From the IMG/VR virus record IMGVR_UViG_3300020416_000693, positions 1-36,150 of that record: DNA of 36,150 nucleotides, one strand, 5' to 3'. Below the pieces are notes generated by a model. That model saw nothing but the letters and a program-made list of their open reading frames with translations. It did no database searches and was not told the DNA's origin. Origin of the DNA: a virus. Shown one piece after another: positions 6,571-33,724 of this stretch (position 1 is its first letter; each line of letters begins with the position of its first letter). Both the position numbers and the translations under genes were made by a program.

Positions 6571-6893
6571 TGACACAAGTTGTTAAAAAATATAAACTAG
6601 AAAACATAGACGCTTCAAAGACATTTGATTCAGTTGAAGATTTTTTTAATCATTCATCTTCAGTAGAAGTAGATTCAGCAAAACTAAATGCCCATATTGA
6701 AAATGATAATGCAAACAGCACAGGCAAAGAAGGTATATTAGGCGAAGACAAAAAACATGTTATCATTTTGAGAGAATTTGCTAATGTTGAAGCGTACAAT
6801 ACATGGCATGCTAAAAGAAAAGAGTTGGGTGATATTGATGATTTGATAAAAGAAACTGATATACCAATGCACCAAAATAATATTGAGTTTTAA
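6570..6893 (+). CDS. Unknown small protein, paralogue of the previous gene
   Basis: A 107-residue hydrophilic protein, not recognised. It has SVEDFFNHSSSVEVDSAKLNAHIENDN, then LGEDKKHVIILREFANVEAYNTWHAKRKEL, which aligns with the upstream gene through most of its length but lacks that gene's Pro-rich C-terminus (TIPPIDTELW). It starts at the TAATG overlap and ends 20 bases before the ATP-grasp gene. The conserved DKK-VI--R-F strand and YN-W helix mark a compact alpha/beta domain. The function is unknown. Confidence 0.7.
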   Translation: MTQVVKKYKLENIDASKTFDSVEDFFNHSSSVEVDSAKLNAHIENDNANSTGKEGILGEDKKHVIILREFANVEAYNTWHAKRKELGDIDDLIKETDIPMHQNNIEF

Positions 6894-6913: not shown

Positions 6914-8242
6914 ATGAATGTAATTATATTATCACATAAAAGAAGTCTTAACAAGTCCGAAGGACTTATCACAGCGAATTTAAATAACCACATCACATTG
7001 GTTTGTGATGTGGTGCCTAACAAGTCAGGTGATCGCTACAAACCTTTCATAGAACACATAGACGATTTAGTTGTATCAAAGAAGTTTGATATAATAGAAA
7101 TTACACAAAAAATTTTATCGTGTGATAAAGTATATTGTGTATCAGAAAATTTATTTCCTATACAAGCACAATTAGAAAGTTACTACGGCATACAGAATAT
7201 ATCTGCTTTTGCAGCTGAAGTCTTTGCAAATAAACAAAAGATGGATGATTTTTGTAGAACAATAGGTCTAGGTCATAATGTACCTAAAAGTGTTACACCT
7301 ACCTTTCATACTCAATTAGATATATTTGAAGGCGATGAATTTTTTACAAAACCTGATATAGGTACAGGCAGTAACTCTTTCTATCCTAAATCTGAACAAA
7401 ATGTACCTACTATAGAATATAGAAGATGGAATAATAAACATCATTTTTTAGATCATCTTACTAAACTAGAACACAATAATAAATTTTTTGAGATAAACAA
7501 AAAAGGTATACAGAATGAGAATTTTAATAATGTGCCTTGTAAGATTATGGCACAAGAATATTATTGGTCTGAAGAACCATCTATATCGCCATATGGTTAT
7601 GTTAAGAATGGTAAAGTAGATTGTTTGTTCTATGTTAGAAATGCAAAAGTTAAATACGGCGATATACTAGACTTTAATAAAAATCCTATAGATCAACACT
7701 CAATCAGTAAGAAAAGTGATATTGCAAAAGATATGGCTGTATGGTCTATACCTGTTAGTCAAGTAGATGAAGAACAACATAAAATAATGTGTGGTTTTGT
7801 ACAGACTATTGTTGACAAATTAAAAGTAAAAGAAATGTACTTTGCAGGACCTGACTTTCATATATCAGGTAATAAATTAATTGCAATAGATTTTAACACA
7901 CGTATAGGTCAGTTTATTAATATATTAGATAAGTTACCTGGCAACAATATATTCAATAATATAGGTAACGAAAAAGAACCAGAGATTACAAATCATTTAC
8001 TTTGGGGTTGTACACAATTAAAACCTGGCATAGTAAAAGATATAAAAAATATAGAAGTAGTTGAAAAGTATTTAAATTATTTAAATGATAAGATTAAAAT
8101 AGGTATGAAGATACCTGAATTTCAAAATCTACAAAATAAGAAGTTTAGTGTTAATTTAAATATTACTGGAAGAGATCAGCAAGAGCTGTTTGACAACTAT
8201 AAGGATGCCAACCAGCTCTTACATAATTGTATTATTTACTAA
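6914..8242 (+). CDS. ATP-grasp ligase
   Basis: A 442-residue cytoplasmic protein with ATP-grasp signatures: KPDIGTGSNS at about 146-155 (glycine-rich ATP loop with Lys146), QEYYWSEEPS at about 214-223 (nucleotide-binding segment), and GPDFHISGNKLIAIDFNTRIG at about 312-332, where Asp314, Asp326, Asn328 and Arg330 fit the Mg-ATP and phosphate positions. The fold activates a carboxylate as acyl-phosphate and joins it to an amine or thiol, as in amino-acid ligases; the substrate cannot be read. The ATG at 6914 is used because the one at 6910 opens a nine-codon frame. No clear ribosome-binding site is seen. Its 3' end overlaps the convergent tctC-like gene by 11 bases. Confidence 0.75.
   Translation: MNVIILSHKRSLNKSEGLITANLNNHITLVCDVVPNKSGDRYKPFIEHIDDLVVSKKFDIIEITQKILSCDKVYCVSENLFPIQAQLESYYGIQNISAFAAEVFANKQKMDDFCRTIGLGHNVPKSVTPTFHTQLDIFEGDEFFTKPDIGTGSNSFYPKSEQNVPTIEYRRWNNKHHFLDHLTKLEHNNKFFEINKKGIQNENFNNVPCKIMAQEYYWSEEPSISPYGYVKNGKVDCLFYVRNAKVKYGDILDFNKNPIDQHSISKKSDIAKDMAVWSIPVSQVDEEQHKIMCGFVQTIVDKLKVKEMYFAGPDFHISGNKLIAIDFNTRIGQFINILDKLPGNNIFNNIGNEKEPEITNHLLWGCTQLKPGIVKDIKNIEVVEKYLNYLNDKIKIGMKIPEFQNLQNKKFSVNLNITGRDQQELFDNYKDANQLLHNCIIY
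8181..8220. terminator. Inverted repeat at convergent gene ends
   Basis: AAGAGCTG at 8181-8188 pairs perfectly with CAGCTCTT at 8213-8220; three further pairs extend the stem inward after one mismatch. For the minus-strand operon it lies just after the stop at 8232, in the position of a terminator or 3' stabilising hairpin. For the plus strand it lies inside the end of the ATP-grasp gene. No T-run follows on either strand, so a classical intrinsic terminator is not shown. Confidence 0.35.
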
Positions 8243-9014
8243 AGTTAGCAACAGCTTCTTCAAACATATCTATTGTTTGATTAGTACCATTCCCAACATA
8301 AGTAACAGAGCCTTTGAATTTACTATTCCACTCGGTAGTAGTAGAGAGGTTTGTTACCGTAGAACGTAATTCGTTTGTTAAGGCGTAGTTAGCATTAATG
8401 GTGATGATTGCGTCAACAAATCTAAAACCTAATTGACCTTTTTCTGAAAAGGCAATACATTTAGATCCATCTTCCTCTAATGCGGCTTGACGTGAAGTAA
8501 TCGTAAAGACCGTATCGGCATCCTTGCCAACATAACCTTTAGTAGTACTTCCGCTGCCAGAATAAGGTACAACTACAAAATTTACATTATATTTTGCACC
8601 TAAATTTTTTAAGAATTTTGCAACTGGTTCTGATCCCCATGTCGCAATCTTAACCGTTTGTCCACTCATATCTTCAAGTGAATTGTATGCTCTACTACAC
8701 ATAAGAGTTTCATATGTCATTAAAGCAACAATATTATCTTTAGATACTTTCGGACTTTTTAAACTATCGTCACCTGGCCATTCACTAGACCATATCGTTA
8801 AGATAGGTTCTGTGCCACCTTCAGCACCTTCTATATAAGTGTATGCAGTAACTGGATTGTCTGCCTGAACAAAGTTATGGTCAGTTGAATCACCTATTGT
8901 AGAAAGAATTTGTCTGAAGACACCTTCTTGTGAACCAGGGTTGATAATTTGCACTTGTGCGTATGCCATCGTACTGAATAACATACTCATTAATATTAAC
9001 ATTATTTTTTTCAT
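8232..9014 (-). CDS. TctC-like periplasmic substrate-binding protein
   Basis: A 260-residue protein with a signal peptide at residues 1-19 (MKKIMLILMSMLFSTMAYA, cut before QVQ). The mature part fits the solute-binding proteins of tripartite tricarboxylate transporters: an opening IINPGSQEGVFRQIL strand and phosphate-loop-like segment, a central SLEDMSGQTVKIATWGSEP hinge, and a C-terminal helix. Such proteins bind citrate or other carboxylates in the periplasm and deliver them to TctA/TctB. At 260 residues it is shorter than the usual 300 or so and diverged. The ribosome-binding site is strong (AGGAGATAAAATG). It is the last gene of the minus-strand operon, directly after tctA. The ligand is unknown. 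Confidence 0.7.
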   Translation of the reverse strand: MKKIMLILMSMLFSTMAYAQVQIINPGSQEGVFRQILSTIGDSTDHNFVQADNPVTAYTYIEGAEGGTEPILTIWSSEWPGDDSLKSPKVSKDNIVALMTYETLMCSRAYNSLEDMSGQTVKIATWGSEPVAKFLKNLGAKYNVNFVVVPYSGSGSTTKGYVGKDADTVFTITSRQAALEEDGSKCIAFSEKGQLGFRFVDAIITINANYALTNELRSTVTNLSTTTEWNSKFKGSVTYVGNGTNQTIDMFEEAVANFSK

Positions 9015-9022
9015 TTTATCTC

Positions 9023-10309
9023 CTATAAGATTATTAATGTTCTAATTAAATTTTCATAAAATAGATCGCTTAGAAAGTATCCGTAAATTATAGGACTTGT
9101 GTCCCAGCGTCTAATTAAGAAACCGATTATAGACAAAACAAATATACAGATAATCATCCATTCGTGTATGGCGAATATTGAAATACTTGCAATGCTAATT
9201 ATTGAGAGAAGTAAGATATTTGCAATGTTTCTATATGTCTTATAGTAATATGCAATCTTACCTAACAGATTAAAACCGTACCAGCTTAACCATAAACAGA
9301 ATACGGTCACAAAAGGAATAATATAGATTATATCTTTTAAGTGATTGACCGTGTTGTCTGCGTTGAATACGAATCCATCTTCTAACATAATATAATAAAT
9401 CAAAACTTCACTTCCCGTTATGGGTATCGCTAGTATAAGCAAAGGCAATAGTGATGATAAGGCGCCACTATTATTTGCTGCCTCTGCGGCTGCTATGCTT
9501 TTAAGTACAGGTTTTTTGAAAAACCTTTTAACAATATTTGCACTTGCATAACTGCCAAGAATATTTGTTACACCAGGTATGAGACCACACCAGAACCCTA
9601 CAAAACTCCCTATGAGTGTAGGTGTTGTAGTATCTTTACCTATTGTAAAATTATTTATACGTTTAGGTACTTCAACTTTAAAACTATTTAATTTTGTTAG
9701 TTCAGGCACGATATATAAACCTATCATAACACTTGCAAAGGGTATGCCTATAGCAAGATATGAATTACCAAACGTTAGAAAACTATCAAACGTTATAGGG
9801 TCTATACCTACTTTTGCAATCATACCACCAAACAAGAACAATAGTATTGTAAACAATTTATTTTGTTTTGTCAATAGTGTAATCATTACAATTGCAGCTG
9901 CAACTATGATTGTCTGTAATACACTATTATAAAATCTAAAGACTTCTATAATTGTAGGCAATACTAATATAAATGCTGTAGTAGCAAATATAACTCCTAT
10001 AGTACTACTAACAGCGTTAGAAGCAACTGCTAAATTACCGAAACCTTTTAAGAATAATCTATGACCATTTCTTGCAGTACTGATTGCTGTTGCGTCACCA
10101 GGTATACCATACAGAATAGCAGTTACACTATTTGTATAATTTGTTGCAATCAATACCGTGATGTAATACATCATAACATTGACAGGTTCTATGTGCGTTA
10201 AGAAAGGATATAAAGTTGCAGTTGCAACAAAAGGTCCTGCACCTGGTATTACACCAAAGATAACACCACTTAAAGTGCCTATAACAGCCCAAAATATTGT
10301 ATCAAACAT
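9023..10309 (-). CDS. TctA-like large membrane subunit of a carboxylate transporter
   Basis: A 428-residue, strongly hydrophobic protein with roughly ten membrane segments. It has the duplicated family signature: GVIFGVIPGAGPFVATATLYP near the N-terminus and GLIPGVTNILGSYASAN near residue 240, plus ILYGIPGDATAISTARNGH after the first, matching the 'Y-GS-PGD' region of TctA. TctA forms the sodium-coupled permease of the tripartite tricarboxylate transporter in the inner membrane. It is shorter than the usual 500 or so residues. A canonical TctB gene is missing; the only small membrane protein in the operon is the DUF6580-like one. Its start overlaps the receptor gene's stop (TAATG), and tctC follows after 8 bases. 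Confidence 0.8.
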   Translation of the reverse strand: MFDTIFWAVIGTLSGVIFGVIPGAGPFVATATLYPFLTHIEPVNVMMYYITVLIATNYTNSVTAILYGIPGDATAISTARNGHRLFLKGFGNLAVASNAVSSTIGVIFATTAFILVLPTIIEVFRFYNSVLQTIIVAAAIVMITLLTKQNKLFTILLFLFGGMIAKVGIDPITFDSFLTFGNSYLAIGIPFASVMIGLYIVPELTKLNSFKVEVPKRINNFTIGKDTTTPTLIGSFVGFWCGLIPGVTNILGSYASANIVKRFFKKPVLKSIAAAEAANNSGALSSLLPLLILAIPITGSEVLIYYIMLEDGFVFNADNTVNHLKDIIYIIPFVTVFCLWLSWYGFNLLGKIAYYYKTYRNIANILLLSIISIASISIFAIHEWMIICIFVLSIIGFLIRRWDTSPIIYGYFLSDLFYENLIRTLIIL

Positions 10310-12075
10310 TAAAAGTATTTTCTAAAGCCTAGATTAAAAGTTCTATCGTATTGATTATAACCATCTGGTCTTTCGTAAGACTTATCAAAGACGTTGTTTA
10401 TACTCCAAAAGAAAGTAGTATTGTCAACATCAATGTTGTAACCTATATCAAATGTTTCAACAGCAGGCATATCTTTTCTTGCATATGTTGAAGCGTCTAT
10501 GTCTTTATGTTTACCAAAGTAATTAAAATCAACATAGAAGTTATCATAATATATCGTTGATGTATTTTGCCAGTTAGGTCTTCTTAACATGTCTTTATCA
10601 TCACCATCTTTAGATACGGTATAAGATAGACTATTATTTAATTGTATCTTGCCATATGTAAATGTATTATTCAATTCTAAACCATGTTGATTACTTTGTT
10701 TCGTATCGTTAACGTATGTGTTTGTATCATACTTTAAAAGATTATCTATTTCTGATTCAAAGTAAACAATACTATGACCGTCTGTTTTGTATCCTATTTC
10801 CCATGTTTTAGATTTTTCAGGTATAAGATTTTTATTACCTAAAAACCCATAGTTGTTTTTACCATACATCTCATAGACCGTAGGTGCTTTATAACCTGTA
10901 GAGTAACTTAAATGTACACCATTATTTTCTACAGCGATTCTATGTGTGTATTGATCGTCAAATGTATTAGGTGTATCTAATCTGACACCACCATGTACAA
11001 AGACACCACTATCAAGTTGTTTATCTAAATTAATATAGTAACCATGATTGTGTCTTTCTTTATCTACGTTTGAGTCATAACCTGCAATGTTAGTATCAAA
11101 ATCTATCTCTTGTAGATTATGTTCAAATCCTGTAGTTAAATCTAAACTATCTTTTAAATGAAAGGTATGACCTGCAATAAAAGTTTCTTGGTCTGAATTG
11201 TAAATATCTTTTGTACCCTTGTCGTCATATGTTCTTTTGTGTTTAGATTTTTGAAAAGAAAACTCGGTATCTTTACTTTGTAAAGAAATGTATTGATTGT
11301 TAAATTGCCATTTAGATGTATAATCAGTATAGTCTGTAGATTTATCTAAATCAGATTTGTTTACCGTCTGTATAATATTTGATTTTAACATCCACTTACC
11401 TAAAAACTTTTCTACTTGAAAGATATAATTTCTATCAGCAATACCATCTTTTTCTGTGCCATCTACTACAGATATACCATCAGCAGTTTCATTCTCAACT
11501 CTAAAGTCTATGATAAAACCCTTTGAGTAATCTGCTTTACCAAGTTTTATTATTTGTGTTTTCTGACCAAAACTACCACCAGATAACTCAATATAATTTA
11601 AACCATTTGCCTGTGTAACCATGTTGATAACGCCACCTATTGCATTAGGTCCATAGATACTACCCATAGGTCCTTTGATTACTTCAACTCTATCTACACC
11701 AAGAAAACTATGAGCAAATAAGTCTTCAGTACCATTCGGTGTTGAGTGATCTTGTATAGCAATACCATTAAGTGTAATAAGAGTATGGTTTGAATTTGTA
11801 CCTCTCATAAATGTAGAAGTTAACTGACCATCAGGACCAGATTGTACAACGTTTAAAGAAGATACTTTTTGTAGTTCGTCTTTGTCTGCTGATACAACTT
11901 CATATGAATATGTTTTATGAGTTAGATCGCTTGAGTTTCTAATAAATGATTTGCAGATATAGATAATCATAGTGCCATCTTCATCAAATTGTGGCCTATC
12001 ACCTCTACAATCATCTGCTTTAGCGCTTGTAAAACTAATTAGTAATACAAATAATGTGAGTAATATTTTATACAT
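10309..12075 (-). CDS. TonB-dependent outer-membrane receptor, BtuB/CirA-like
   Basis: A 588-residue protein. The ATG at 12075 is preferred over the upstream 12096 start because it has AGGAAA before it and opens a clean signal peptide (residues 1-20, MYKILLTLFVLLISFTSAKA). The plug domain is clear: FMRGTNSNHTLITLNGIAIQD, then VDRVEVIKGPMGSIYGPNAIGGVINMVT, the BtuB/CirA pattern. A beta-barrel follows and ends NLGFRKYF, with the terminal Phe needed for outer-membrane assembly. Its length is close to BtuB, so cobalamin or a small iron chelate is a likelier cargo than a large glycan, but the ligand is inferred. It would depend on host TonB-ExbB-ExbD. It overlaps the DUF6580-like gene by 37 bases. 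Such receptors are not standard phage genes. Confidence 0.88.
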   Translation of the reverse strand: MYKILLTLFVLLISFTSAKADDCRGDRPQFDEDGTMIIYICKSFIRNSSDLTHKTYSYEVVSADKDELQKVSSLNVVQSGPDGQLTSTFMRGTNSNHTLITLNGIAIQDHSTPNGTEDLFAHSFLGVDRVEVIKGPMGSIYGPNAIGGVINMVTQANGLNYIELSGGSFGQKTQIIKLGKADYSKGFIIDFRVENETADGISVVDGTEKDGIADRNYIFQVEKFLGKWMLKSNIIQTVNKSDLDKSTDYTDYTSKWQFNNQYISLQSKDTEFSFQKSKHKRTYDDKGTKDIYNSDQETFIAGHTFHLKDSLDLTTGFEHNLQEIDFDTNIAGYDSNVDKERHNHGYYINLDKQLDSGVFVHGGVRLDTPNTFDDQYTHRIAVENNGVHLSYSTGYKAPTVYEMYGKNNYGFLGNKNLIPEKSKTWEIGYKTDGHSIVYFESEIDNLLKYDTNTYVNDTKQSNQHGLELNNTFTYGKIQLNNSLSYTVSKDGDDKDMLRRPNWQNTSTIYYDNFYVDFNYFGKHKDIDASTYARKDMPAVETFDIGYNIDVDNTTFFWSINNVFDKSYERPDGYNQYDRTFNLGFRKYF

Positions 12076-12428
12076 AATTTTCCTATCATAACACATATCA
12101 AGGTAGATACCAAAAGATTAAAATCAAAGGGTACTGCTTGTATGTAAGTTTGTAATAAATTGCCACCGTATGAGTACCATACAGCGAAGTTAACAACAAC
12201 GTGCCAAATCAAAACGCCTAAAAACGTTGCTGTTATACTATTACTTATATGTCTGCCTAGTAAGACAAAAATTGCCATACAACCATAGACAGGTATCATT
12301 AGGCCATGAAAACCTAAAAATACATCTTTAAATAACATTAAAGATAATGGTATGCCATATTGTATTCTTTGATTACTTGTAATACTAGGTAGTAATATTG
12401 CAATAGCAAATAAAGGCGTTATATTCAT
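12039..12428 (-). CDS. DUF6580-like small membrane protein
   Basis: A 129-residue protein with about four membrane segments. It shows the pattern I associate with DUF6580, a putative transport family: ITPLFAIAILLPS, then KDVFLGFHGLMIPVYGCMAIFVLLG, then VVVNFAVWYSYGG, then YIQAVPFDFNLLVSTL. In bacteria such proteins are often found next to TonB-dependent receptors; this is recollection, and no search was possible. It lacks the extra N-terminal helix of longer relatives. It begins at an ATGA overlap with the oxygenase gene upstream and overlaps the receptor gene downstream, so the pair probably acts together in uptake. TctB also has four segments, but the motifs fit DUF6580 better. Confidence 0.6.
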   Translation of the reverse strand: MNITPLFAIAILLPSITSNQRIQYGIPLSLMLFKDVFLGFHGLMIPVYGCMAIFVLLGRHISNSITATFLGVLIWHVVVNFAVWYSYGGNLLQTYIQAVPFDFNLLVSTLICVMIGKLCIKYYSHYLYY

Positions 12429-13081
12429 AATAATTTTTTATACTTTTCTGTTTGTTTGCCAGTTATCTTGGCAATAGTTCTAGGCCATGGTCCTGTGTTT
12501 GCAGTACTATGAGGAATATTTGCCCAATCAAACCATACTACATCACCTGCTTTCCATGGTGGTACATATGTATTCCCGAATTGAATAATATGTCCTGGTT
12601 TCCAATCTTCTAACATAACAAAAACTCTACCCCATTCAGGATCAGTTGCTCTGCTTGATGATTGATCTTTTCTTTCTTTTCTTAAACCTGTTAAACTATC
12701 AATATGTAAATGTAACATCATACCAGTAGTTTGAGTTTGTATATTAACTTGTGCGTCTTCTAAACCTAACTTATCTGCTAAACCACATAATATAGGACAC
12801 TCTTTCTTTGTTGCAGTCCACATTCTATAGATTACAAAATCTTTAGGTATGCCCCAATCTTCTACTAGTTTATTTTCATACTCGTAATCAAAATGATCGC
12901 CACCTGGTTTTACAGGACTAGGCCAATAGAAATCATATTGTTGCTTGTTTGCATATTCTAATTCCTTTGACCAGTCCTCGTAAATGTTTGTAACCGTTTT
13001 AAAGTATTTACCATGATCGCTTTCTCTAAAAGGATTGAAATCATAATTACTTTGTTTAACGGTTATATCCCACCTGTTCAT
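12425..13081 (-). CDS. 2OG-Fe(II) oxygenase-like protein (sixth in operon)
   Basis: A 218-residue protein. The iron facial triad appears as H126-I-D128 (in GMMLHLHIDSL) and H191 (in WANIPHSTANTGPWPR), with Arg201 ten residues later as the likely 2-oxoglutarate anchor. Between them lie RVFVMLEDWKPGHIIQFGN and PPWKAGDVVWFDW, typical strands of the double-stranded beta-helix. Such enzymes use O2 and 2-oxoglutarate to hydroxylate, or otherwise oxidise, an unactivated carbon. An upstream TTG start at 13093 exists, but the ATG at 13081 forms the ATGA overlap usual in this operon. It is the most distinct of the six homologues. The substrate is unknown. Confidence 0.75.
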   Translation of the reverse strand: MNRWDITVKQSNYDFNPFRESDHGKYFKTVTNIYEDWSKELEYANKQQYDFYWPSPVKPGGDHFDYEYENKLVEDWGIPKDFVIYRMWTATKKECPILCGLADKLGLEDAQVNIQTQTTGMMLHLHIDSLTGLRKERKDQSSSRATDPEWGRVFVMLEDWKPGHIIQFGNTYVPPWKAGDVVWFDWANIPHSTANTGPWPRTIAKITGKQTEKYKKLL

Positions 13082-13644
13082 GCCATGCTCCAAAATGCTT
13101 TGTTATTTGTAAATAGTGTGCCTTCGTAGTATTTAATTTTTACTCTCTCAAACCAAAACTTTAAATCTACTACTAAAGTTATTCTATCGTTTTTATTTTT
13201 CAATGATTTAGCAGTTCCGTGCATGTAATTCGCACTATAAATTATAGGCGTATCATTTGTATGTTCTACCCTTTCTACTATTTGGTCAAATTGATCTATC
13301 ATTAAGATAGGTGTTTTAGACCAATCGTTATCAGGTTCATCACATATAACAGGAAATTGTAATTTAGTAAAGTTCTCAAAGTCCCAATGATTAGGTATAC
13401 CACCAGGGTGTACTCTACTAAAATATATTCTTTTCTCATCTACATCAACATTAATATTGTTTATTAGATGTTTGTAAAATTCATGGTTACGATCAAACGT
13501 ATTGTTCTCATCTATAGGCCAGTATTGTGGTAACTTATCTTGTCTATGTACCCACTTTGTTTGATCTATAGTATTATAAAAATCTACTATCATCTCTTTA
13601 TCAAACTTTAGTGTCTTGGCTTCTACAGAATAAAAATCAGTCAT
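13078..13644 (-). CDS. 2OG-Fe(II) oxygenase-like protein (fifth in operon)
   Basis: A 188-residue protein with the aspartyl/asparaginyl-hydroxylase-like pattern PGGIPNHWDFENF (H86-W-D88), LQFPVICDEPDNDWSKTPILMID, then IIYSANYMHGTAKSLKNKNDRITLVVDLKFWF with H142 and Arg154 twelve residues later. All iron ligands and the likely 2-oxoglutarate arginine are present. It aligns with the gene just upstream and with the one at 16797-17330 through the PGG--NH-D motif. The start overlaps the previous stop by 8 bases and the next gene starts at an ATGA overlap. No signal peptide is present, so it is cytoplasmic. Protein, peptide and small-molecule substrates all remain possible. Confidence 0.75.
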   Translation of the reverse strand: MTDFYSVEAKTLKFDKEMIVDFYNTIDQTKWVHRQDKLPQYWPIDENNTFDRNHEFYKHLINNINVDVDEKRIYFSRVHPGGIPNHWDFENFTKLQFPVICDEPDNDWSKTPILMIDQFDQIVERVEHTNDTPIIYSANYMHGTAKSLKNKNDRITLVVDLKFWFERVKIKYYEGTLFTNNKAFWSMA

Positions 13645-14245
13645 TTGATACTCCTATGTTTTCTGTATTCTTACTTAACCATGTACCGTTCTTTGCTCTC
13701 TCGTACATTTCTGTAGGATGTGTGTGTATGTTTACAGAAAACACTACACGTTCCTCTTCATCATCTATAGGTGTAGGTACAGCATGTAAAACTCTGCTAT
13801 CAAAAAATACAGGCGTACCATTATCATGTATCTTACTTTTCTCAAAGTTAAATCTTTCTATTTCTGTATAGTTTTCTGTTGCAAATATTTGAGGCGTTAG
13901 ATGAAACTTACCTTTTACAGGAAACAATACAGCACCCCAACGTCTATGGTCATAATGTAAATTGATACCACCTGGTGGTAATTTAGAAAAGAAACACCAA
14001 GGTTTCTTTTTCTCAACTCCTCTTTCACTACTACCTACAAAATCTAACGTGCTATTTTCTACAATATCTTTCCACATATTCTCGTATGGTATATTTCTAC
14101 ACTCATTAACAGTCCACGTTACACCAGTTACACTTGTACCATCAACCCAATCACTAGGTTTTAAACTTTCAAGCACGTCAACTAACCATTGTTGATTGTA
14201 ATAAATGTTATGACATTTGACAAAGAAGTTACCTTGTTCAAACAT
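13637..14245 (-). CDS. 2OG-Fe(II) oxygenase-like protein (fourth in operon)
   Basis: A 202-residue protein. The motif PPGGINLHYDHRRWGAVLFPVKGKF gives H97-Y-D99. PVFFDSRVLHAVPTPIDDEEERVVFSVNIH gives H154 and Arg166. This is the aspartyl/asparaginyl beta-hydroxylase-like layout, and it closely matches 16797-17330, including TPQ-F between the two halves and LHAVP around the distal His. The ATG at 14245 lies in an 8-base overlap with the methyltransferase gene. It is predicted to be a cytoplasmic hydroxylase. Paralogy within the operon suggests successive oxidations or several related substrates. Confidence 0.8.
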   Translation of the reverse strand: MFEQGNFFVKCHNIYYNQQWLVDVLESLKPSDWVDGTSVTGVTWTVNECRNIPYENMWKDIVENSTLDFVGSSERGVEKKKPWCFFSKLPPGGINLHYDHRRWGAVLFPVKGKFHLTPQIFATENYTEIERFNFEKSKIHDNGTPVFFDSRVLHAVPTPIDDEEERVVFSVNIHTHPTEMYERAKNGTWLSKNTENIGVSND

Positions 14246-15143
14246 GACTCATCTCCGTAAATATTCTGTACATAGGTGGTCTGTATAAATTACAATGGTC
14301 ATAATCAACTTTGTTTATTTTTAAACCTACATGTCCTGCAAGTGTATTTACAGCATGTTCAGTCCAGTTAAAGTACCATGTGTACTTCCAGTTTCTATCG
14401 TAGAAATAAAACGCACTATTTTTTTGTGCGTGTTCTAAATCGCCATGTATCCAAGTGTGACCATGTGGGTGATCTGGTTGAAATACTTTATAGTAATTAT
14501 GAACATGTGACCATAATAGTAAACCACTAGGTGCTAAACATTTCTTTAACGTCATAAAGTTTCTATATTGTTCATCATACGTATACCAGTTTTGAGGACC
14601 AAAACATATAATTACATCCCATTTTATATCATCAGCAGGTTTAAAATCTGCTTGACTACACAATATATCTGCTTCTTTTCTGTAAGGGTCAACACCTGTA
14701 ACATTGTTTAAGTGTTTCTTATATTCGTTTACACCACAACCCATATCTAATATTGTTAGATTAGGTCTTTCTTTTTGCATTGCTTGTAATCTTTTAACAA
14801 GAGCGTCACCTCTTATATTCCATTTGTTCGTAATAGGTTTATCGTTTACATCTTTTATTTCACCTACGACACCTGTTGTACTTGTACCATTTTCTGCTAC
14901 AAAGTAATTGTGTTGATATTGTTTGTCTATTTCTTTTACGAAATCACCCATTGTTTTATCATGCCAATCCATAATACCACCAAGACGTATGGGATATTCT
15001 TTATCTCTTACTTTCATTGAAAATTCTTTTTGACAAGTAAGAATAAAGTCCATTGTAAAAGGTAATTGATTGATAGGGCTATCTACTGATATGTTCCAGT
15101 AAAATAATTCTTCTACTTTATTCCAGATTAATTTGTTTATCAT
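14238..15143 (-). CDS. SAM-dependent methyltransferase
   Basis: A 301-residue protein. Methyltransferase motif I is TILDMGCGVNEYKKHL at about 130-145, followed by VTGVDPY with the acidic residue Asp152 that binds the SAM ribose, and WDVIICFGPQNWYTYDEQYRNFMTLKKCLAPSGLLLWSH as the motif III/IV region. About 125 residues precede the Rossmann core, and an aromatic-rich C-terminal part (NWKYTWYFNWTEHAVNTL) probably shapes the substrate site. The ATG at 15143 is chosen because it overlaps the previous stop as ATGA and follows GGAGAAAA. It lies between a cobalamin radical SAM gene and three oxygenase genes, so its acceptor is probably an intermediate of the same pathway. Confidence 0.8.
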   Translation of the reverse strand: MINKLIWNKVEELFYWNISVDSPINQLPFTMDFILTCQKEFSMKVRDKEYPIRLGGIMDWHDKTMGDFVKEIDKQYQHNYFVAENGTSTTGVVGEIKDVNDKPITNKWNIRGDALVKRLQAMQKERPNLTILDMGCGVNEYKKHLNNVTGVDPYRKEADILCSQADFKPADDIKWDVIICFGPQNWYTYDEQYRNFMTLKKCLAPSGLLLWSHVHNYYKVFQPDHPHGHTWIHGDLEHAQKNSAFYFYDRNWKYTWYFNWTEHAVNTLAGHVGLKINKVDYDHCNLYRPPMYRIFTEMSHV

Positions 15144-16804
15144 ATTTTTCTCCAAGACTCACTAAATCTACCTCTAACGTGTATATCTCTGAGCCATTCC
15201 ATCTTATCGTCAATAGGTCTGAAATCATTTTTGTTGCGATCAATAATCTCATCATATTCAGGATACATTTCTTTGAATACATCAAATATATTATTCTCGG
15301 TATAGAATAAGTGAGAATAAGCTGTATCTGTATAATAATTTATATCTTTATTAAGTATCTTATATCCAATGTCTTTGTAGTCATTAAGTGCTTTAAAATA
15401 ATGTTCTCTAACATCTAGTTTGTGTTTCATAAATGTTTTGTTCTTAAATAATTTAGAATATATGTCCATAAATAATTCACTTCTATTACCATTAATTTCA
15501 TAATAACAATCAGCATGATACTTTGCAAGACCATACCAGTACATTGGTATTAAGAAACTTCTACTATAAAAGAAACCTTCAAAGACTTGATCTCTTGTCA
15601 TCTTATCTGTTGCAACAGCGATCTCATCTATTACATCATTGTTATATGGCTTTGCTGTACCTTTTATATTCTGCCATATCATTTCAGGAAAACCTGTATT
15701 AAATTCTGTATTACTTAATCTACTTAAAGTATTAATCTGTATCATATCAAAAGGTGCAGGCATGTCAACTATTTCGTGTAGTCCATATTTAAATGTTTCT
15801 ATTGTATCGCCTGGTAGAGGAAATATTAATTCTGTATAAGAAGAAACGCCTTTGTCTTTTAAATCTTTTATTATAGGTTTGAAACTCTTAATATCAAACG
15901 CATTTTTTCTTTTTACATTTTTTAACGTTTCAGGATTTGTAGATTGTAAACTAAAACCAAAAGTGTCATCTACACTTGCGTCTTGTAATTTTTTTGCAAG
16001 TTTCATTATCTTGTCACCGTGTGTCTTTGCCCACGTAGGCATAAATCTACCATTAAAGTTACCTGCTTTCTTTTGTTCTACAACAAAATCTACAAGTTTC
16101 TCATCTCTAGGAAATATACCAAAGTTACTATCTGCAACATCAATAGCACTTACGTTTCTATCACACATCCACTTTAATTCTTTTATACATTTTTCTGTTT
16201 CAAACATTTGTATCTTTGTATATTTTTTATGTCCTATATCACAGAAAGAGCAAGTGTAAGGACAACCTCTATTGCCTTCAAATATTGCTCTAACTTTTTG
16301 ATTGTTGCCTTCTAGTAAACTATCAAAGAAACCATTAAGATAAGGACTAGGTATCATCTTTGGGTCAGCATATATTGCCTCAGCTGCATTATCAAAATCT
16401 TTTGTTACTACACCAGGTATATTGAAGTCATCATCTACCAGTATTCTTCTCATAGTTTCTTCACCATAATATGCTAAAACAGCGTCAACTTCAGGATGTT
16501 CTCTACACCATTCAGATGTATATTTTGGTTCAGGCCCGCCTACAACTATTTTACATTTAGGATACTTTTTCTTTACTTCTTTTAATACGTCATATGTTTG
16601 TTTCCAGTTCCACATATAACAACTTGCAGCTATGAAATCAGGATCAACAATATCAATCTCTTTATTCCACCACACACCTGCAAGTCTGTATTTGTCTTGC
16701 ACTTCTTTAAATTGATTACAATAGGACCATATTGTACCTACTGCTTGTGGCAGATAGGCTGCGTCTGTACCTAAAGGTATTTGTAGAAAATAGAAGTTAC
16801 GCAT
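15140..16804 (-). CDS. Cobalamin-binding-type radical SAM enzyme
   Basis: A 554-residue protein. Residues 1-125 form a Rossmann domain like the cobalamin-binding domain of class B radical SAM enzymes (DIVDPDFIAASCYMWNW, CKIVVGGPEPK, AVLAYYGEETMRRIL); the DxHxxG motif is absent, as is usual in that class. The radical SAM core starts at CPYTCSFCD with Cys181, Cys185 and Cys188 for the 4Fe-4S cluster, and TELIFPLPGDTIETF is a later core strand. A C-terminal helical extension of about 180 residues follows. Relatives methylate or rearrange unactivated carbons. The start at 16804 (MRNFYFLQ) matches the homologous start of the operon's first gene and overlaps the previous stop by 8 bases. The substrate is unknown. 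Confidence 0.85.
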   Translation of the reverse strand: MRNFYFLQIPLGTDAAYLPQAVGTIWSYCNQFKEVQDKYRLAGVWWNKEIDIVDPDFIAASCYMWNWKQTYDVLKEVKKKYPKCKIVVGGPEPKYTSEWCREHPEVDAVLAYYGEETMRRILVDDDFNIPGVVTKDFDNAAEAIYADPKMIPSPYLNGFFDSLLEGNNQKVRAIFEGNRGCPYTCSFCDIGHKKYTKIQMFETEKCIKELKWMCDRNVSAIDVADSNFGIFPRDEKLVDFVVEQKKAGNFNGRFMPTWAKTHGDKIMKLAKKLQDASVDDTFGFSLQSTNPETLKNVKRKNAFDIKSFKPIIKDLKDKGVSSYTELIFPLPGDTIETFKYGLHEIVDMPAPFDMIQINTLSRLSNTEFNTGFPEMIWQNIKGTAKPYNNDVIDEIAVATDKMTRDQVFEGFFYSRSFLIPMYWYGLAKYHADCYYEINGNRSELFMDIYSKLFKNKTFMKHKLDVREHYFKALNDYKDIGYKILNKDINYYTDTAYSHLFYTENNIFDVFKEMYPEYDEIIDRNKNDFRPIDDKMEWLRDIHVRGRFSESWRKI

Positions 16805-17330
16805 TTTTGAAATTCTTTGTGTCTGTCCATATAGTCTTCTTGTCAATCTTATCAAACAACTTATCAACCCACTCAAATAAATCCATCATCAATACCCAAC
16901 GAGGTCCTGTATCAGTTAATTGTCTAGGCACAGCATGTAACATACGTGTGTTAAATATAACAGGACTATCAACTACAAATGACTCTACTGGATGATTGAA
17001 TTGATCGTAGAAGTATTGAGGTGTATTTTCAAAATCACCTTTCAAAGGTATGCCTAGATTACCCCACTTGTTGTGGTCAATATGATTTACTAACCCACCA
17101 GGTTTCACATTACTAATAAAGAAAGATGGTCTTTTAAATTCTGCATTAAGACCTTCATATAATTCATTTAGTATAGGAAATTGTTTAGGACTTAAAGGCA
17201 GTTCTTCAACATTCCAAAGTAAACCATTTTGATCGTACCCTTGTCTCCATGTTGCTCTTTCAGCATATTCAATTATCTCATTAAAAACGTTAGTGTCGTA
17301 TTGTAATTTAAATTTTTTATGATACCACAT
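16797..17330 (-). CDS. 2OG-Fe(II) oxygenase-like protein (third in operon)
   Basis: A 177-residue protein with KPGGLVNHIDHNKWGNLGIPLKGDF (H83-I-D85), TPQYFYDQF, then PVIFNTRMLHAVPRQLTDTGPRWVLMMDLFEW (H132, Arg144). It is a complete aspartyl/asparaginyl-hydroxylase-like double-stranded beta-helix in compact form, closest within the window to the gene at 13637-14245. It starts at a TAATG overlap with the previous gene and overlaps the following radical SAM gene by 8 bases. The direct coupling to a radical SAM gene suggests that the two enzymes act on a shared substrate. Confidence 0.8.
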   Translation of the reverse strand: MWYHKKFKLQYDTNVFNEIIEYAERATWRQGYDQNGLLWNVEELPLSPKQFPILNELYEGLNAEFKRPSFFISNVKPGGLVNHIDHNKWGNLGIPLKGDFENTPQYFYDQFNHPVESFVVDSPVIFNTRMLHAVPRQLTDTGPRWVLMMDLFEWVDKLFDKIDKKTIWTDTKNFKNA

Positions 17331-17983
17331 TATGCAAACCTATATTGTTCTATTAGTGTTTTAAAACATTCCTCATCAAACTTCAAACAGAATACACACA
17401 TAATTATATCTTCAGCAGTACTGAATACAGAATGTCTTTTGTTTGCGTTGAAATAATACAAGGTGCCATCTTCTACATCTCGTACCGTATCTTCATATAT
17501 AAACTTTAAATCTTTTTTATTACAATTATTAATAAACGCAATCAATCTTATTTCTTCGTAACCAAATTCTATTTTGTTTATATCATAATGTTCAGGAAAA
17601 TATCCACCTGTGTTTAGTTTTAGAAAGTGACATCTACCTAACCATGGTTTCCATGGTGCAATAAGTTTTTGTATTTCTTCAGATTGTTTGTATACCTCGG
17701 TGTATTCTTTTATATGATGATTTGTAATACTTGTGCCATGTATCTTATTGTATTGTAGTAAACTATCTAAATCAGGCACGCCACTTAACTTGCCATCTAA
17801 ACTTGTTATACTCAAACCCCACCTGTTGTTTGGGTTTCTTAAATTGTAAGGTTTCCAATGATGTTTAAATCCTTCAATGTCTTCCATTATCTGTCTAGTG
17901 TTGATCTTTTGTTTCATTTGTAACCAATCACCCATAAAAGAAAGTCTTTGAAGTGCCTTGTTTGTTCTATCTACACTACTCAT
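17330..17983 (-). CDS. 2OG-Fe(II) oxygenase-like protein, distal arginine missing (second in operon)
   Basis: A 217-residue protein. LNTGGYFPEHYDINKIEFGYEEIRLIAFINN gives H132-Y-D134 and Arg146, and DGTLYYFNANKRHSVFSTAEDIIMCVFCLKFD gives H184. The iron ligands are kept. The arginine found 10-12 residues after the distal His in its five relatives is absent here; that place reads EDIIMC. Either Arg146 anchors the co-substrate or the protein no longer uses 2-oxoglutarate in the usual way. It starts at an ATGA overlap and ends at TAATG. Five cysteines in the C-terminal half are a second oddity. Confidence 0.7.
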   Translation of the reverse strand: MSSVDRTNKALQRLSFMGDWLQMKQKINTRQIMEDIEGFKHHWKPYNLRNPNNRWGLSITSLDGKLSGVPDLDSLLQYNKIHGTSITNHHIKEYTEVYKQSEEIQKLIAPWKPWLGRCHFLKLNTGGYFPEHYDINKIEFGYEEIRLIAFINNCNKKDLKFIYEDTVRDVEDGTLYYFNANKRHSVFSTAEDIIMCVFCLKFDEECFKTLIEQYRFA

Positions 17984-18624
17984 ACAAATTTTATCCTTTT
18001 ATTTTTTTCATTTTGTTCCCAGTTTACTAAAGTACCATCTAGTAATCTTTTCTCTATATCTTCATAACTATTATGTCGCCAAGCACAAGTTATAATAATT
18101 CTATTCTTTTCTGTTTTGTTTTCAACACCATGTATTTCAGGACCTTTAAATATCCAAGGTGCAAATTCATTTGTTATATCATTTTTTTCGTATGTCATTC
18201 TATACTTTTCTGTACTTCTATCAAAACTATCATAGAAGACTTGAGGACTTGTATCACTAAACTCACCTCTAATTGCAAAGTTTAAAGCAGTAGGTCTGTT
18301 TCTATCTTGGTGTGGTGGTGCACCACCTATTGCTGTTTGTGTGTACAATACGGTATCAAAAGATATTGCAGGCGTAAAAAGTTTTATCAACTCATAATGA
18401 AACTCACTAAAAGGATAATTTTTACATTCCCGTCTAGCGTTAAATGCCTCTTGTACGGTCCATCTTATGTGACCACAATCAAACAGATACCAATTGTTCT
18501 CGCTTATATTCTCTAAATGATTTAATAGATATTCTCTATCATACCAAAGAGATTTAAGTTCCCGACAATACGGTGCTGATCTTGTTTCTTCCAAGGACGT
18601 CAACCTTATCTCTGGCGTCATCAT
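17980..18624 (-). CDS. 2OG-Fe(II) oxygenase-like protein (first in operon)
   Basis: A 214-residue protein when started at 18624. GGAPPHQDRNRPTALNFAIRGEF gives His105 and Asp107; APWIFKGPEIHGVENKTEKNRIIITCAWR gives His165 and Arg175. SDTSPQVFYDSFD between them matches TPQ-F in its relatives. The start is uncertain: ATGs lie at 18636, 18624 and 18621, and GAAAGG favours the second. Any of them overlaps the redoxin-like gene by about 70-80 bases, far more than other junctions in this operon, so an alternative start such as the TTG at 18594 is possible. The stop overlaps the next gene as ATGA. Confidence 0.75.
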   Translation of the reverse strand: MMTPEIRLTSLEETRSAPYCRELKSLWYDREYLLNHLENISENNWYLFDCGHIRWTVQEAFNARRECKNYPFSEFHYELIKLFTPAISFDTVLYTQTAIGGAPPHQDRNRPTALNFAIRGEFSDTSPQVFYDSFDRSTEKYRMTYEKNDITNEFAPWIFKGPEIHGVENKTEKNRIIITCAWRHNSYEDIEKRLLDGTLVNWEQNEKNKRIKFV

Positions 18625-19144
18625 TAAACCTTTCATAATTTGTTTGTATAATTTCTAAATACTTTATCATTGTATCAGCGTCTGATACTTGAAAACACGT
18701 CATAGGATTGTGTGTAAAGTCTTCATACTTACAATGTTTCATAATTAGATTGTCTATAATCATAGCGTATCTATGACTACAATTTCCTAATCCCTCTTTA
18801 CTCATACTCTCTAACATACCTATAGATGTAGCCCAATCACCATTAGGGTCAGGTAAGTTTTTTAAGTATGATAAATTTTCTGATTTGTGATATGCGTTTT
18901 GTACGTAACAATTATCAACACTTGTAAAATATACTTCATCAATACCTAGTTCTCTTATCTTGCTGTAATAGAAGTCGTATGCTTTTAAATGTGTGGCTGC
19001 ATACTCAACAAGAAATACGCCAGGCAATCCTATTAGTAATATTTTTTTATCTTTAAATAATTCGTGTGTAGAATACCAGTTTGTGGCTGCACTATCTTTG
19101 TGCATAGTTTTTACGTCTGGTATTATATCGCCAACTCTTATCAT
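18554..19144 (-). CDS. Redoxin-fold (peroxiredoxin-5-like) protein lacking the peroxidatic cysteine
   Basis: A 196-residue protein. The N-terminus MIRVGDIIPDVKTM, then STHELFKDKKILLIGLPGVF, matches the Prx5/AHP redoxin fold, as do GIDEVYFTSVDNCYVQNAY, LPDPNGDWATSIGM and HRYAMIIDN. In active enzymes the loop reads PxxxTxxC; here it reads PGVFLVEY, so both the catalytic Thr (Leu45) and the peroxidatic Cys (Tyr48) are replaced. It is therefore unlikely to be a peroxidase by the standard mechanism. Four cysteines remain elsewhere. The ATG at 19144 is chosen over the longer frame from 19195 because it overlaps the previous stop as ATGA and opens the domain at its usual place. It may be a binding or scaffold protein. 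Confidence 0.75.
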   Translation of the reverse strand: MIRVGDIIPDVKTMHKDSAATNWYSTHELFKDKKILLIGLPGVFLVEYAATHLKAYDFYYSKIRELGIDEVYFTSVDNCYVQNAYHKSENLSYLKNLPDPNGDWATSIGMLESMSKEGLGNCSHRYAMIIDNLIMKHCKYEDFTHNPMTCFQVSDADTMIKYLEIIQTNYERFNDDARDKVDVLGRNKISTVLSGT

Positions 19145-20991
19145 AACATAATCTCCTTTGATTTCAAAAAACATCTCTTGGCTTTTCTTCCCCACCAGAA
19201 TAAATGCTTTGAGTGGTCTACTATATCTTTATATTTATAAACGGCTACAGATACGATATTGTTAACAGCGACTAATGGTTTGTTATCATAGAACCAACTA
19301 TACCAGTTTTTGTTAAATTGTTTTTCTGTATCATCTCTTTCGTATGTGTCAATAATGTGCTTGTTAAACTGGCACGCTTCTGATACATCAACATTATATT
19401 CTTTCTTACATATGTCTATAATTTCTTTATGTACCTTGTCTATGTTTCTATATAAAAATGAAGCTGTTGCACCATTATCTTGTATATGAAAATCATCACC
19501 ACCTTCTATAGTTCTTCCCCATGTCTTATCTTCAAACAAACTTTCTTTTAAACTATTTGTGTGATTTATATATTCTTCATTTAGTATACCATCGCCATCT
19601 CTACTATACTTAAATAGTTTTTTATAAAAATCAATAAATGATATATTATGTTCTCGGTTTAAATATGTGGCTGCAACTTGACTAACGCCATGATAGTGAT
19701 GAGGTATCACAAGACCTTTAGCAAAAAAATACATGTCTATATAATCTTGTTTACTATAACTTTTACTTTCATATGCAACATAATCAATCTCACCATTACT
19801 ATCTTTAGGATAAGTATTACCACCTGCAGGTGCAGCTGTCTTTGTATATTTGTATCCGTATTTGTTTTTATATTCAGGTTCAGAAAAAGGAGTATTAGGC
19901 ACAATACTCAAAGGGTGTACCGTCAACGCATGGTCACTTCCTAATTCTAGTATCTTACCTATTCCTTCTATCCATGTTTCTAATGTTTCTTCAGGTAGAC
20001 CTACAATCAGTTCACAATAATTATCAACGCCTGCCTTGTTATAGTCGCCTACAATTTGTTCTAATTTTTCATTTGCAAGATTAATTCTTTTGATTGCTTT
20101 TAGTGTTTTAGGATTCATACTTTGTAAAGCAATTGTAACACCACGTCTTATCTTTGCTTCTTTGTTAAGTATTTCACCTAACTCTACAATACGTTTTGGT
20201 TGTTGTTTTGCTGTACTATAATCTATCTGTCTAGGATAACCAGTTTCATTTCTACGTTTAGCGATGTGTCTTATAAAGTCAACATCTCTATTAAACATAC
20301 CTACATTACTATCGCCAAAGTATAAGAAGTCAATTTTATTTTTTACAATCCAATCTATCTCACCTATTACTCTATCATAATCAAACATAGCAATCTTATT
20401 ATAATATAAATCTTGTTGATCGCAGAAAGAACAACTATATGGACAACCTCTATTTGTTTCTATGATAGCACTATATTGTTTACCAGGTTTCATAAGACTA
20501 TCCATCAACCCACTTAAATAAGGACTAGGTATATCGTTTAACTCTCTATCTGGTTTAGGTGGCGTATAAGATTCTTTTGTCATTACGCCTGGGTATGTAT
20601 AGTTACCTTTTAGTATTTCAGCAAATGCTCTTTCACCTGCATATGTAACTATAATATCGCATAGATCAGGATTGTCTTCTAACCAACTTTGTTTGAATGG
20701 CACTTGTGGTCCACCCATTACTATTTTACAATTAGGATATTTCTTTTTGACTGCTCGTGCTAACTGACAAGTTATGTCCCAGTTCCACACGTATGTTGAT
20801 AGTGCTAAAATGTCAGGATTGTCAATCTTCTTTAGATAGTCCTCTACGGATTCTCTCTCAAAGAAGATGTCGCCTAGTTCCCAATCTGTTACCTGTGTCT
20901 TACAATATTCCCAAATATATGCAACACTTAATGGTAAGAATATTGCGTCAGCAATTAGATTGTTTATTTGTGTAAAATATACCTTTTTCAA
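19141..20991 (-). CDS. Cobalamin-binding-type radical SAM enzyme, first gene of the operon, TTG start
   Basis: A 616-residue paralogue of the gene at 15140-16804. The N-terminal Rossmann domain has NPDILALSTYVWNWD, CKIVMGGPQVPF and IIVTYAGERAFAEIL; the radical SAM motif is CPYSCSFCD with Cys183, Cys187 and Cys190; NYCELIVGLPEETLETW is a core strand; the helical C-terminus is longer than in the paralogue. An in-frame stop lies two codons upstream and no nearby ATG is in frame, so TTG at 20991 is the start. It aligns with the paralogue's ATG (KKVYFTQ versus RNFYFLQ) and has AAGGA upstream. It is the first gene after a late promoter. The substrate is unknown. Confidence 0.85.
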   Translation of the reverse strand: MKKVYFTQINNLIADAIFLPLSVAYIWEYCKTQVTDWELGDIFFERESVEDYLKKIDNPDILALSTYVWNWDITCQLARAVKKKYPNCKIVMGGPQVPFKQSWLEDNPDLCDIIVTYAGERAFAEILKGNYTYPGVMTKESYTPPKPDRELNDIPSPYLSGLMDSLMKPGKQYSAIIETNRGCPYSCSFCDQQDLYYNKIAMFDYDRVIGEIDWIVKNKIDFLYFGDSNVGMFNRDVDFIRHIAKRRNETGYPRQIDYSTAKQQPKRIVELGEILNKEAKIRRGVTIALQSMNPKTLKAIKRINLANEKLEQIVGDYNKAGVDNYCELIVGLPEETLETWIEGIGKILELGSDHALTVHPLSIVPNTPFSEPEYKNKYGYKYTKTAAPAGGNTYPKDSNGEIDYVAYESKSYSKQDYIDMYFFAKGLVIPHHYHGVSQVAATYLNREHNISFIDFYKKLFKYSRDGDGILNEEYINHTNSLKESLFEDKTWGRTIEGGDDFHIQDNGATASFLYRNIDKVHKEIIDICKKEYNVDVSEACQFNKHIIDTYERDDTEKQFNKNWYSWFYDNKPLVAVNNIVSVAVYKYKDIVDHSKHLFWWGRKAKRCFLKSKEIML

Positions 20992-21028: not shown

Positions 21029-21053
21029 TATTTATACATAAATATGTTATAAT
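21029..21053. promoter_or_regulatory. Divergent late-type promoter region between the two large operons
   Basis: TATTTATA at 21029-21036 is an exact TATAAATA on the minus strand, 37 bases before the TTG of the radical SAM gene. CATAAATA at 21037-21044 is a seven-of-eight match on the plus strand, and a sigma70-like TATAAT lies at 21048-21053. The two late boxes abut in an imperfect palindrome. The plus-strand leader to the ATG at 21059 would be at most about 9 bases and has no ribosome-binding site. One short region therefore appears to drive 14 genes leftward and 12 rightward. Confidence 0.6.
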
Positions 21054-21058: not shown

Positions 21059-21934
21059 ATGAAAAACGTAAATATAGTATGCACTAGTAAGCCTGGCGAT
21101 GGCCTATTACATTATAGTTATGAACATTGTTGTTTTCTCAATGATCTAGGTATAAACACTAAACTCATAATCGTCAAAAACAAAAAACATACAGATCAGG
21201 ATTACATTGACGCAATAAATGAGTGTTATACTAAATTTGAGAATGTAATATTTGATGACTATATGCCAAAGTCAGATGATATAACTTTGATTATGGGTAG
21301 AAGTATGTTGACACTTGCATACCTAGATTATAATAGTTATACCGAAGAACAAAAACTAACATTACATAGTTTGTTTGGTGGTAAACTCATTTCTGTTTAT
21401 TCAGAAAATCACGTCAAAGAATATCCTATTGCGTTAAATCATTTTAATTTTACACCAGAAAAAGTTGTTGATCTATGCGACCACGAAGTTTACGTAAATG
21501 GTGTAGGCAAACAATTTGAAAAGATAATAAATTTTAGTATATATAAACCAGTAGTTGATGATATAAAAGTTAAGCATTTGTTTTTAGGAACGAATAGAAC
21601 ATACTATAGAGAAGTTGAAAGACACATAAAAGATTATCCAGATCATGGTATTTTAGCATATAAAGACAAGTATATAAATGAAAAACGTAATCACTTATTT
21701 GTACCTGTTAAAAATTTACTAGGAATATTTGACACATATGTTTACACTAAACCTAATTTTGATCCTGCACCTAGAATAATACAAGAATGTAAATGGTTAG
21801 GTAAAAAATTTATATACGCAAGAAGTAAAGATTTAAAAGATGGCGGTCCTGTTTATGTAGATAGACCTGCAAAATGTCTAACTGAACAAAAAGATAAAAT
21901 AGAAAATTTACTAAAATGGATAGAGAAACTATAA
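21059..21934 (+). CDS. Probable GT-B-like glycosyltransferase
   Basis: A 291-residue protein. MKNVNIVCTSKPGDGLLHYSYEHCCFL looks like an N-terminal nucleotide-fold strand and helix. The C-terminal part, KPNFDPAPRIIQECKWLGKKFIYARSKDLKDGG, resembles the donor-binding end of phage GT-B-like transferases, where a 'D-APR-IQE' segment faces the sugar nucleotide. No DxD motif is evident, which fits GT-B better than GT-A. It is the first gene of the plus-strand operon, starts at an ATG with almost no leader, and overlaps the next gene by 19 bases. The family assignment comes from a few motifs and could be wrong. Confidence 0.5.
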   Translation: MKNVNIVCTSKPGDGLLHYSYEHCCFLNDLGINTKLIIVKNKKHTDQDYIDAINECYTKFENVIFDDYMPKSDDITLIMGRSMLTLAYLDYNSYTEEQKLTLHSLFGGKLISVYSENHVKEYPIALNHFNFTPEKVVDLCDHEVYVNGVGKQFEKIINFSIYKPVVDDIKVKHLFLGTNRTYYREVERHIKDYPDHGILAYKDKYINEKRNHLFVPVKNLLGIFDTYVYTKPNFDPAPRIIQECKWLGKKFIYARSKDLKDGGPVYVDRPAKCLTEQKDKIENLLKWIEKL

Positions 21935-31627: not shown

Positions 31628-31640
31628 AATTCATAATATA

Positions 31641-32670: not shown

Positions 32671-32674
32671 CTAA

Positions 32675-33723: not shown

Positions 33724-33724
33724 C

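Follow-up and report, generated by a model that had tools for sequence, protein, structure and literature searches.

Why would a phage encode an outer-membrane receptor of the vitamin-uptake type in the same operon as a set of biosynthetic enzymes? We addressed this question for the 36,150-base IMG/VR virus record IMGVR_UViG_3300020416_000693, analyzed over its whole length (the window). Fourteen open reading frames (ORFs) on the minus strand (8232-20991) form the operon; neighbouring genes overlap by 1-83 bp at 12 of the 13 junctions, while the remaining one, between the genes for TctA and a protein named 'TctC', is an 8-bp gap. As many other contigs share the block, it is not an assembly artefact. 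The description of 14 nearly all overlapping genes in a first-pass annotation of this DNA is upheld. The count in that annotation was right, but its gene list left a redoxin/peroxiredoxin gene (18554-19195) unnamed, and it placed the receptor gene before the DUF6580 gene; in transcription order DUF6580 comes first, overlapping the receptor gene by 58 bp. Our analysis indicates that with this operon a SAR11-type myophage probably encodes a tailoring pathway together with its own supply of vitamin B12 (cobalamin).

The demand for B12 would come from two enzymes, rSAM1 and rSAM2, which are 32% identical to each other. As proposed earlier, both are cobalamin-type proteins: each contains a B12-binding domain, a radical SAM domain and a CxxxCxxC motif. 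These features are shared with TokK, CysS and KedN5, and in profile searches the radical SAM proteins matched TokK (7e-71) and CysS (1e-57). The top NCBIfam model was KedN5 (NF033712, 8.5e-56); the phage proteins differ from this group in scoring under the curated KedN5 cut-off and in being encoded in a phage operon. By family, they are predicted to be methylcobalamin-dependent C-methyltransferases, and hence to require B12. A B12-dependent class II ribonucleotide reductase (RNR) was ruled out as the origin of the B12 need: the phage RNR reached about half of the NrdJ cut-off, as did that of Pelagibacter phage Mosig EXVC030M, the nearest isolate.

Six other ORFs (oxA-oxF) contain an HxD...H iron triad, followed by a distal Arg in five of them, and the products of oxA, oxC, oxD and oxE are paralogues in which H97/D99/H154/R166 are invariant. 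The triads agree with the earlier claim of six Fe(II)/2-oxoglutarate (2OG) proteins, but a curated oxygenase family could not be assigned: none of the six matched Pfam or PHROG, the two tested did not match NCBIfam, and a profile of the paralogues gave only chance matches in the PDB. OxB is 39% identical to a Mosig protein annotated Asp_Arg_Hydrox, and the C-terminus of OxF weakly resembles the structures of phytanoyl-CoA dioxygenase and AtsK (E 0.04-0.5). The single methyltransferase named before was recovered as a weak match to S-adenosylmethionine (SAM)-dependent methyltransferases.

We then consider the receptor. A profile of phage receptors matched BtuB in the PDB over its full length (1e-47 across 527 positions), whereas CirA was matched in the plug only (3.5e-17); of the original "BtuB/CirA-like" assignment, it is thus the BtuB part that stands. 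The receptor also matched the NCBIfam TonB-B12 model TIGR01779 (2.5e-51), with 174.9 bits against an equivalog cut-off of 599.7. It resembles BtuB in having a plug and a barrel, in its length (595 versus 594 aa) and in sharing the RGTN..H plug stretch of the Escherichia coli protein. It differs in being about 27% identical to Salmonella BtuB, far under the equivalog cut-off, and in being phage-encoded, devoid of a riboswitch and adjacent to DUF6580. The TonB barrel and plug, DUF6580 and TctA each scored above their Pfam cut-offs, which confirms the families first given to the latter two. An iron or siderophore receptor was ruled out on scores, siderophore receptors matching far worse than BtuB, and the idea that the receptor brings in iron was dropped accordingly. 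Cobalamin is therefore a well-supported putative ligand for this BtuB-like receptor. Among the cellular matches kept from a genome scan, the top one was L050 (PACV01000025.1; 84% identity), from a Flavobacteriaceae bin; those after it were largely from SAR11 genomes, at 26-31% identity. L050 carries phage tail-fibre genes together with the phage receptor pair and looks like a mis-binned viral contig.

The pairing of the receptor with DUF6580, a family with no known function, is also found in SAR11 bacteria. An AdoCbl-II (adenosylcobalamin) riboswitch lies directly before the BtuB homologue in nine of the 11 SAR11 loci scanned (L052, L054, L057, L059, L061, L064, L066, L070 and L071), and DUF6580 is directly downstream of BtuB in 23 SAR11 loci. 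In 147 Pelagibacterales genomes, 42 of the 44 AdoCbl-II matches share a strand with a DUF6580 gene and precede it by 2.0-2.5 kb, with only eight above the gathering score; because the position is constant, pairing by chance is unlikely. SAR11 has been predicted from genomes to be B12-auxotrophic, and B12 regulation of its btuB was stated to be unknown (PMC9296465); the order AdoCbl-II riboswitch, btuB, DUF6580 seen in Pelagibacteraceae loci (L051-L122) bears on that question. In three SAR11 loci (L069, L074 and L077), BtuB has close by a gene that resembles the B12-type radical SAM genes of the phage.

Searches for FecCD/BtuC in Pelagibacterales genomes gave weak 18-31-bit matches, mostly to ORFs of about 267 aa resembling another permease type, and CbiQ/EcfT was found in none of 58 Pelagibacterales genomes. 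As the host order has no clear BtuC and no EcfT, DUF6580 is the remaining candidate for the inner-membrane step; it is a candidate SAR11 B12 permease by association, not by proof. A model of a full-length phage homologue (L030, from a 24-sequence alignment) had a predicted local distance difference test score (pLDDT) of 90, and its first eight Foldseek matches in the PDB were S-components of energy-coupling factor (ECF) transporters, with 4huq_S, 5d3m_C and 8c7p (BtuM) on top. The highest template modelling (TM) score, 0.63 at a probability of 0.99, was obtained for BtuM with cyanocobalamin. BtuM, predicted from co-localisation with btuB, is a solitary S-component for which no ECF module is needed to transport B12 (PMC6072759). 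DUF6580 shares with it the S-component fold of the model, the co-localisation with btuB and the lack of a detected ECF module in the host order.

The BtuB match, the riboswitch and DUF6580 pairing in SAR11, the S-component/BtuM fold and the enzyme family together support the cobalamin supply put forward in the first-pass annotation, and from them we infer the following route. With the help of the host's TonB, the receptor would bring cobalamin through the outer membrane, and DUF6580 would act as a solitary, BtuM-like S-component permease that passes it across the inner membrane. The imported cobalamin would then be used by rSAM1 and rSAM2, the predicted C-methyltransferases of the TokK/CysS type, and the 2OG oxygenases and the methyltransferase may also modify their product. 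TctA and the secreted 'TctC' would belong to the same pathway, most likely moving a carboxylate substrate or product. That the phage imports B12 through both membranes with BtuB and DUF6580, free of a riboswitch, to feed its own methyltransferases, and that DUF6580 is the SAR11 B12 importer, is a combined proposal that we regard as evenly poised between right and wrong.

The phage and host pairs appear to differ in regulation. No riboswitch or other RNA was found in the window, so that the phage receptor gene lacks the B12-responsive regulation that is common, though not universal, among BtuB genes; for the same reason, the phage pair may be released from B12 repression. While the BtuB-DUF6580 pair of the host is under a B12 riboswitch, that of the phage has none and lies in a phage operon that is probably expressed late, and it would therefore by-pass the B12 repression of the host. 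Loss of the riboswitch is not a general viral trait, because two other viral BtuB genes keep an AdoCbl-II riboswitch upstream (L167:3034-3120 and L172:5279-5357). A glutamine riboswitch is located shortly upstream of yet another viral BtuB gene (L158:6466-6512). Late expression is suggested by the T4-type late-promoter-like motif TATAAATA before rSAM1, which all six near relatives that were inspected have in this position and three distant cassettes lack. The number of TATAAATA copies as such was dropped as promoter evidence, since it equals chance in the window (9 found, 9.0 expected).

Next, we compared the cassette and the receptor pair across contigs, many of which are near copies, so that counts are not independent. 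The full cassette with DUF6580 and a type 1 receptor recurs in many contigs. A second set of contigs has another BtuB (type 2) in the receptor slot, about 25-32% identical to type 1; in a tree with arbitrary rooting and bacterial sequences sampled by similarity, type 2 groups with SAR11 BtuB at 100/100 and type 1 falls in a viral group of its own. Contig G001 (171 kb) carries DUF6580 together with a single radical SAM gene of the rSAM1/rSAM2 type but no receptor. Cassettes on contigs of 65-257 kb contain rSAM1, in most cases rSAM2 as well, oxygenases and, as a rule, the Tct genes. DUF6580 adjoins 49 of 81 viral receptors, and B12-binding domains occur on 10 of 21 receptor-bearing viral contigs (one of them weak) versus one of 13 receptor-free controls, two groups that are unequal in length and kinship. 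In L010-L013 the receptor pair adjoins a radical SAM protein; a test for its B12 domain, made in L010, gave only a weak indication. Judging from these patterns, the receptor pair resembles an optional module for B12 supply, open to exchange or loss. An association test around the carbamoyltransferase gene was uninformative, as the 10-kb flanks stop short of the receptor. Between oxF and TctA, sister cassettes have radical SAM genes (one with a SPASM-like match) and QueC/PP-loop-like genes in place of a receptor (L302:15453-18328).

Several observations weigh against a dedicated B12 supply. No TonB receptor was found anywhere on the 65-257 kb cassette contigs, which means that the enzymes do not require it; conversely, L010-L014 and other viruses have the DUF6580-receptor pair but not the cassette, and BtuB-DUF6580 is seen in viruses where no TokK-like radical SAM lies within reach. 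The type 2 receptor has no DUF6580 beside it. Inspection of the receptor N-terminus by eye revealed no clear TonB box consensus. The main weakness of the inner-membrane step is the shortened DUF6580 of the window: it has 129 aa, starts at profile position 27 and lacks the first helix of the family, and it cannot be extended because a stop codon lies four codons upstream of the ATG. DUF6580 further differs from BtuM in having no sequence match to it and, in the 24 sequences aligned, no invariant cysteine as counterpart of the axial cobalt ligand. Finally, the Foldseek E-values are weak (best 0.05, none passing 0.001), so that the S-component likeness, resting on probability and TM score, gives support at the level of fold only.

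Such points leave room for other functions of the receptor. It might work at the cell surface, a BtuB variant that displaces or mimics the host receptor and thereby blocks superinfection or shifts adsorption, with the B12 chemistry being coincidental. We think this unlikely, even though the operon is situated in the pelagimyophage host recognition cluster beside tail fibres (PMC7029224), TonB receptors are known as phage receptors, a TonB receptor gene of phage Skadi was interpreted as a sign of an adsorption receptor (PMC10504331), and the enzymes of relatives manage without a receptor. The reason is that the phage receptor has an intact plug and barrel and is paired with an inner-membrane S-component-like protein, like the riboswitch-linked B12 genes of SAR11, and that two different BtuB lineages were acquired in the same operon slot. 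The uneven distribution of B12-binding domains, in groups of unequal and related contigs, also speaks against the possibility that the pair boosts B12 for host metabolism during infection, for example for methionine synthesis, and shares only a hypervariable island with the enzymes. The many viruses that have BtuB-DUF6580 without a TokK-like radical SAM gene nearby would fit such a role, as would the predicted auxotrophy of SAR11 (PMC9296465); yet in the window the pair forms one tight operon with two methylcobalamin-type enzymes, and the RNR, being under the NrdJ cut-off, does not account for a B12 need. We consider this explanation quite improbable.

The Tct genes bear on another alternative, put forward in the first-pass annotation, namely that they import a co-substrate of the six oxygenases, 2-oxoglutarate or citrate, or that the receptor supplies iron. 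TctA is a true family member (25-28% identity to SAR11 TctA), the Tct pair was found only in the cassette, and there are six 2OG-type triads. No result singled out 2-oxoglutarate or citrate as the cargo. The 260-aa 'TctC', however, could not be substantiated as such: no significant TctC match was obtained in the PDB, Pfam, NCBIfam, SAR11 genomes or by hhalign, and profile searches stayed negative even after 60%-identical relatives were added. The hhalign alignment with SAR11 TctC was collinear and nearly end-to-end, at a probability of 4%; an AlphaFold2 model from six close sequences had a pLDDT of 35 and was not used. No TctB-like ORF is present within the operon. Moreover, cassettes L300, L301 and L311 keep the enzymes, including oxygenases, without Tct genes, and iron receptors match much worse than BtuB. 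2-Oxoglutarate is already a central metabolite of any host with a tricarboxylic acid (TCA) cycle, and we judge the import of a co-substrate or of iron very unlikely. 'TctC' directly follows TctA in every contig with coverage. It was found in 30 contigs, with the ATP-grasp-like gene adjacent in all 30; TctA and pathway enzymes are present wherever the contig reaches, and no TctA/'TctC' was seen away from the cassette, some contigs being too short for every neighbour. The Tct genes thus look like a fixed part of the pathway. The link between uptake and enzyme genes proposed in the first-pass annotation is thus seen, as co-occurrence, for TctA/'TctC', which were found only with the enzymes, and is partly contradicted for the receptor pair, as pair and cassette each occur apart.

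We continue to favour the supply of B12 by the phage itself. T4-like virion genes related to those of Pelagibacter phages are present at the left and right ends of the window, as in pelagimyophages (Kyanoviridae). The VrlC-type baseplate protein shares 62% identity with its Mosig counterpart (about 42% for the next best among the records listed), and the gene order of 21059-36148 is collinear with Mosig at mostly 41-78% identity. Bacterial contamination was ruled out by the virion genes on both flanks and by the recurrence of the cassette in phage contigs of 129-171 kb. The operon sits in the hypervariable region of T4-like pelagimyophages named the "host recognition cluster" by Zaragoza-Solas et al. 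(PMC7029224). The relatedness to and collinearity with Mosig and this position make SAR11 a likely host, although gene similarity gave no host assignment for most pelagimyophage groups (PMC7029224), and the related phage Melnitz infects OM43 (PMC9004378). Mosig has an oxygenase and peroxiredoxin operon at the matching place of the island but lacks the receptor, the Tct genes and the two B12 radical SAM genes. Radical SAM cassettes were noted in PMC7029224, where TonB, tricarboxylate transport and cobalamin are unmentioned.

In the phage collection searched, the receptor, TctA and the radical SAM proteins had no more than distant matches and 'TctC' had none, and neither a phage B12 import system nor DUF6580 by name was found in searches of open-access papers. 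TonB-dependent receptor genes have been described in the marine phage genomes Mar_Mega_1 (SusC-like; PMC9723777) and Skadi (PMC10504331); neither a link to B12 nor a partner in the inner membrane nor an operon with enzymes is mentioned in the available parts of these reports. In the ocean, where B12 is scarce, the supply of this vitamin was reported to be limiting for SAR11 in places (PMC9296465). If our proposal is correct, a virus would import a cofactor for its own enzymes through both membranes, which goes beyond boosting host pathways. It would also provide a function for DUF6580 and fill in the missing B12 step of the very abundant SAR11, in which BtuB is present but searches of the genomes gave neither a clear BtuC nor an ECF module.

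Table 1. Features of the putative B12-supplied tailoring operon and its flanks in the window.
Feature	Position	Strand	Basis or remark
TATAAATA, T4-type late-promoter-like motif	21029..21036	-	about 37 bp upstream of first gene (rSAM1)
rSAM1, B12-binding radical SAM, predicted TokK/CysS/KedN5-type C-methyltransferase	19141..20991	-	PF04055 + PF02310; CPYSCSFC
Redoxin/peroxiredoxin-like	18554..19195	-	PF08534 1.3e-11; phrog_2281 1.8e-30
oxA, putative 2OG/Fe(II) oxygenase, paralogue of oxC/D/E	17980..18636	-	H109QD...H169 + R
oxB, putative 2OG/Fe(II) oxygenase, Asp/Arg-hydroxylase-like	17330..17983	-	H132YD...H184
oxC, putative 2OG/Fe(II) oxygenase	16797..17330	-	H83ID...H132 + R
rSAM2, B12-binding radical SAM, predicted TokK/CysS/KedN5-type C-methyltransferase	15140..16876	-	PF04055 + PF02310; CPYTCSFC
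SAM-dependent methyltransferase-like	14238..15155	-	PF13489 3.7e-5, under curated cut-off; phrog_24759 0.0019
oxD, putative 2OG/Fe(II) oxygenase	13637..14245	-	H97YD...H154...R166
oxE, putative 2OG/Fe(II) oxygenase	13078..13644	-	H86WD...H142 + R
oxF, putative 2OG/Fe(II) oxygenase	12425..13093	-	H130ID...H195...R
DUF6580, inner-membrane S-component-like, proposed B12 permease	12039..12428	-	PF20221 2e-17, profile 27-147
BtuB-like TonB-dependent receptor, 595 aa	10309..12096	-	PF00593 1.2e-23 + PF07715 6.1e-15; signal-peptide-like N-terminus
TctA-family membrane transporter	9023..10309	-	PF01970 1.1e-58
Secreted 260-aa protein, tentatively TctC-like solute-binding	8232..9014	-	signal-peptide-like N-terminus; directly after TctA
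ATP-grasp-like (motif only), convergent, constant neighbour of Tct genes	6914..8242	+	IDFNTR motif; no Pfam match

Two other regions of the window deserve mention. Beside the ATP-grasp-like gene, two small, fast-evolving paralogous ORFs with about 32% mutual identity are located on the plus strand (6178-6893); that they encode peptide substrates is a guess. On the other side of the operon, a divergent operon (21059-30429, plus strand) that is conserved in Mosig contains radical SAM, aminotransferase, carbamoyltransferase, methyltransferase and glycosyltransferase-like genes.

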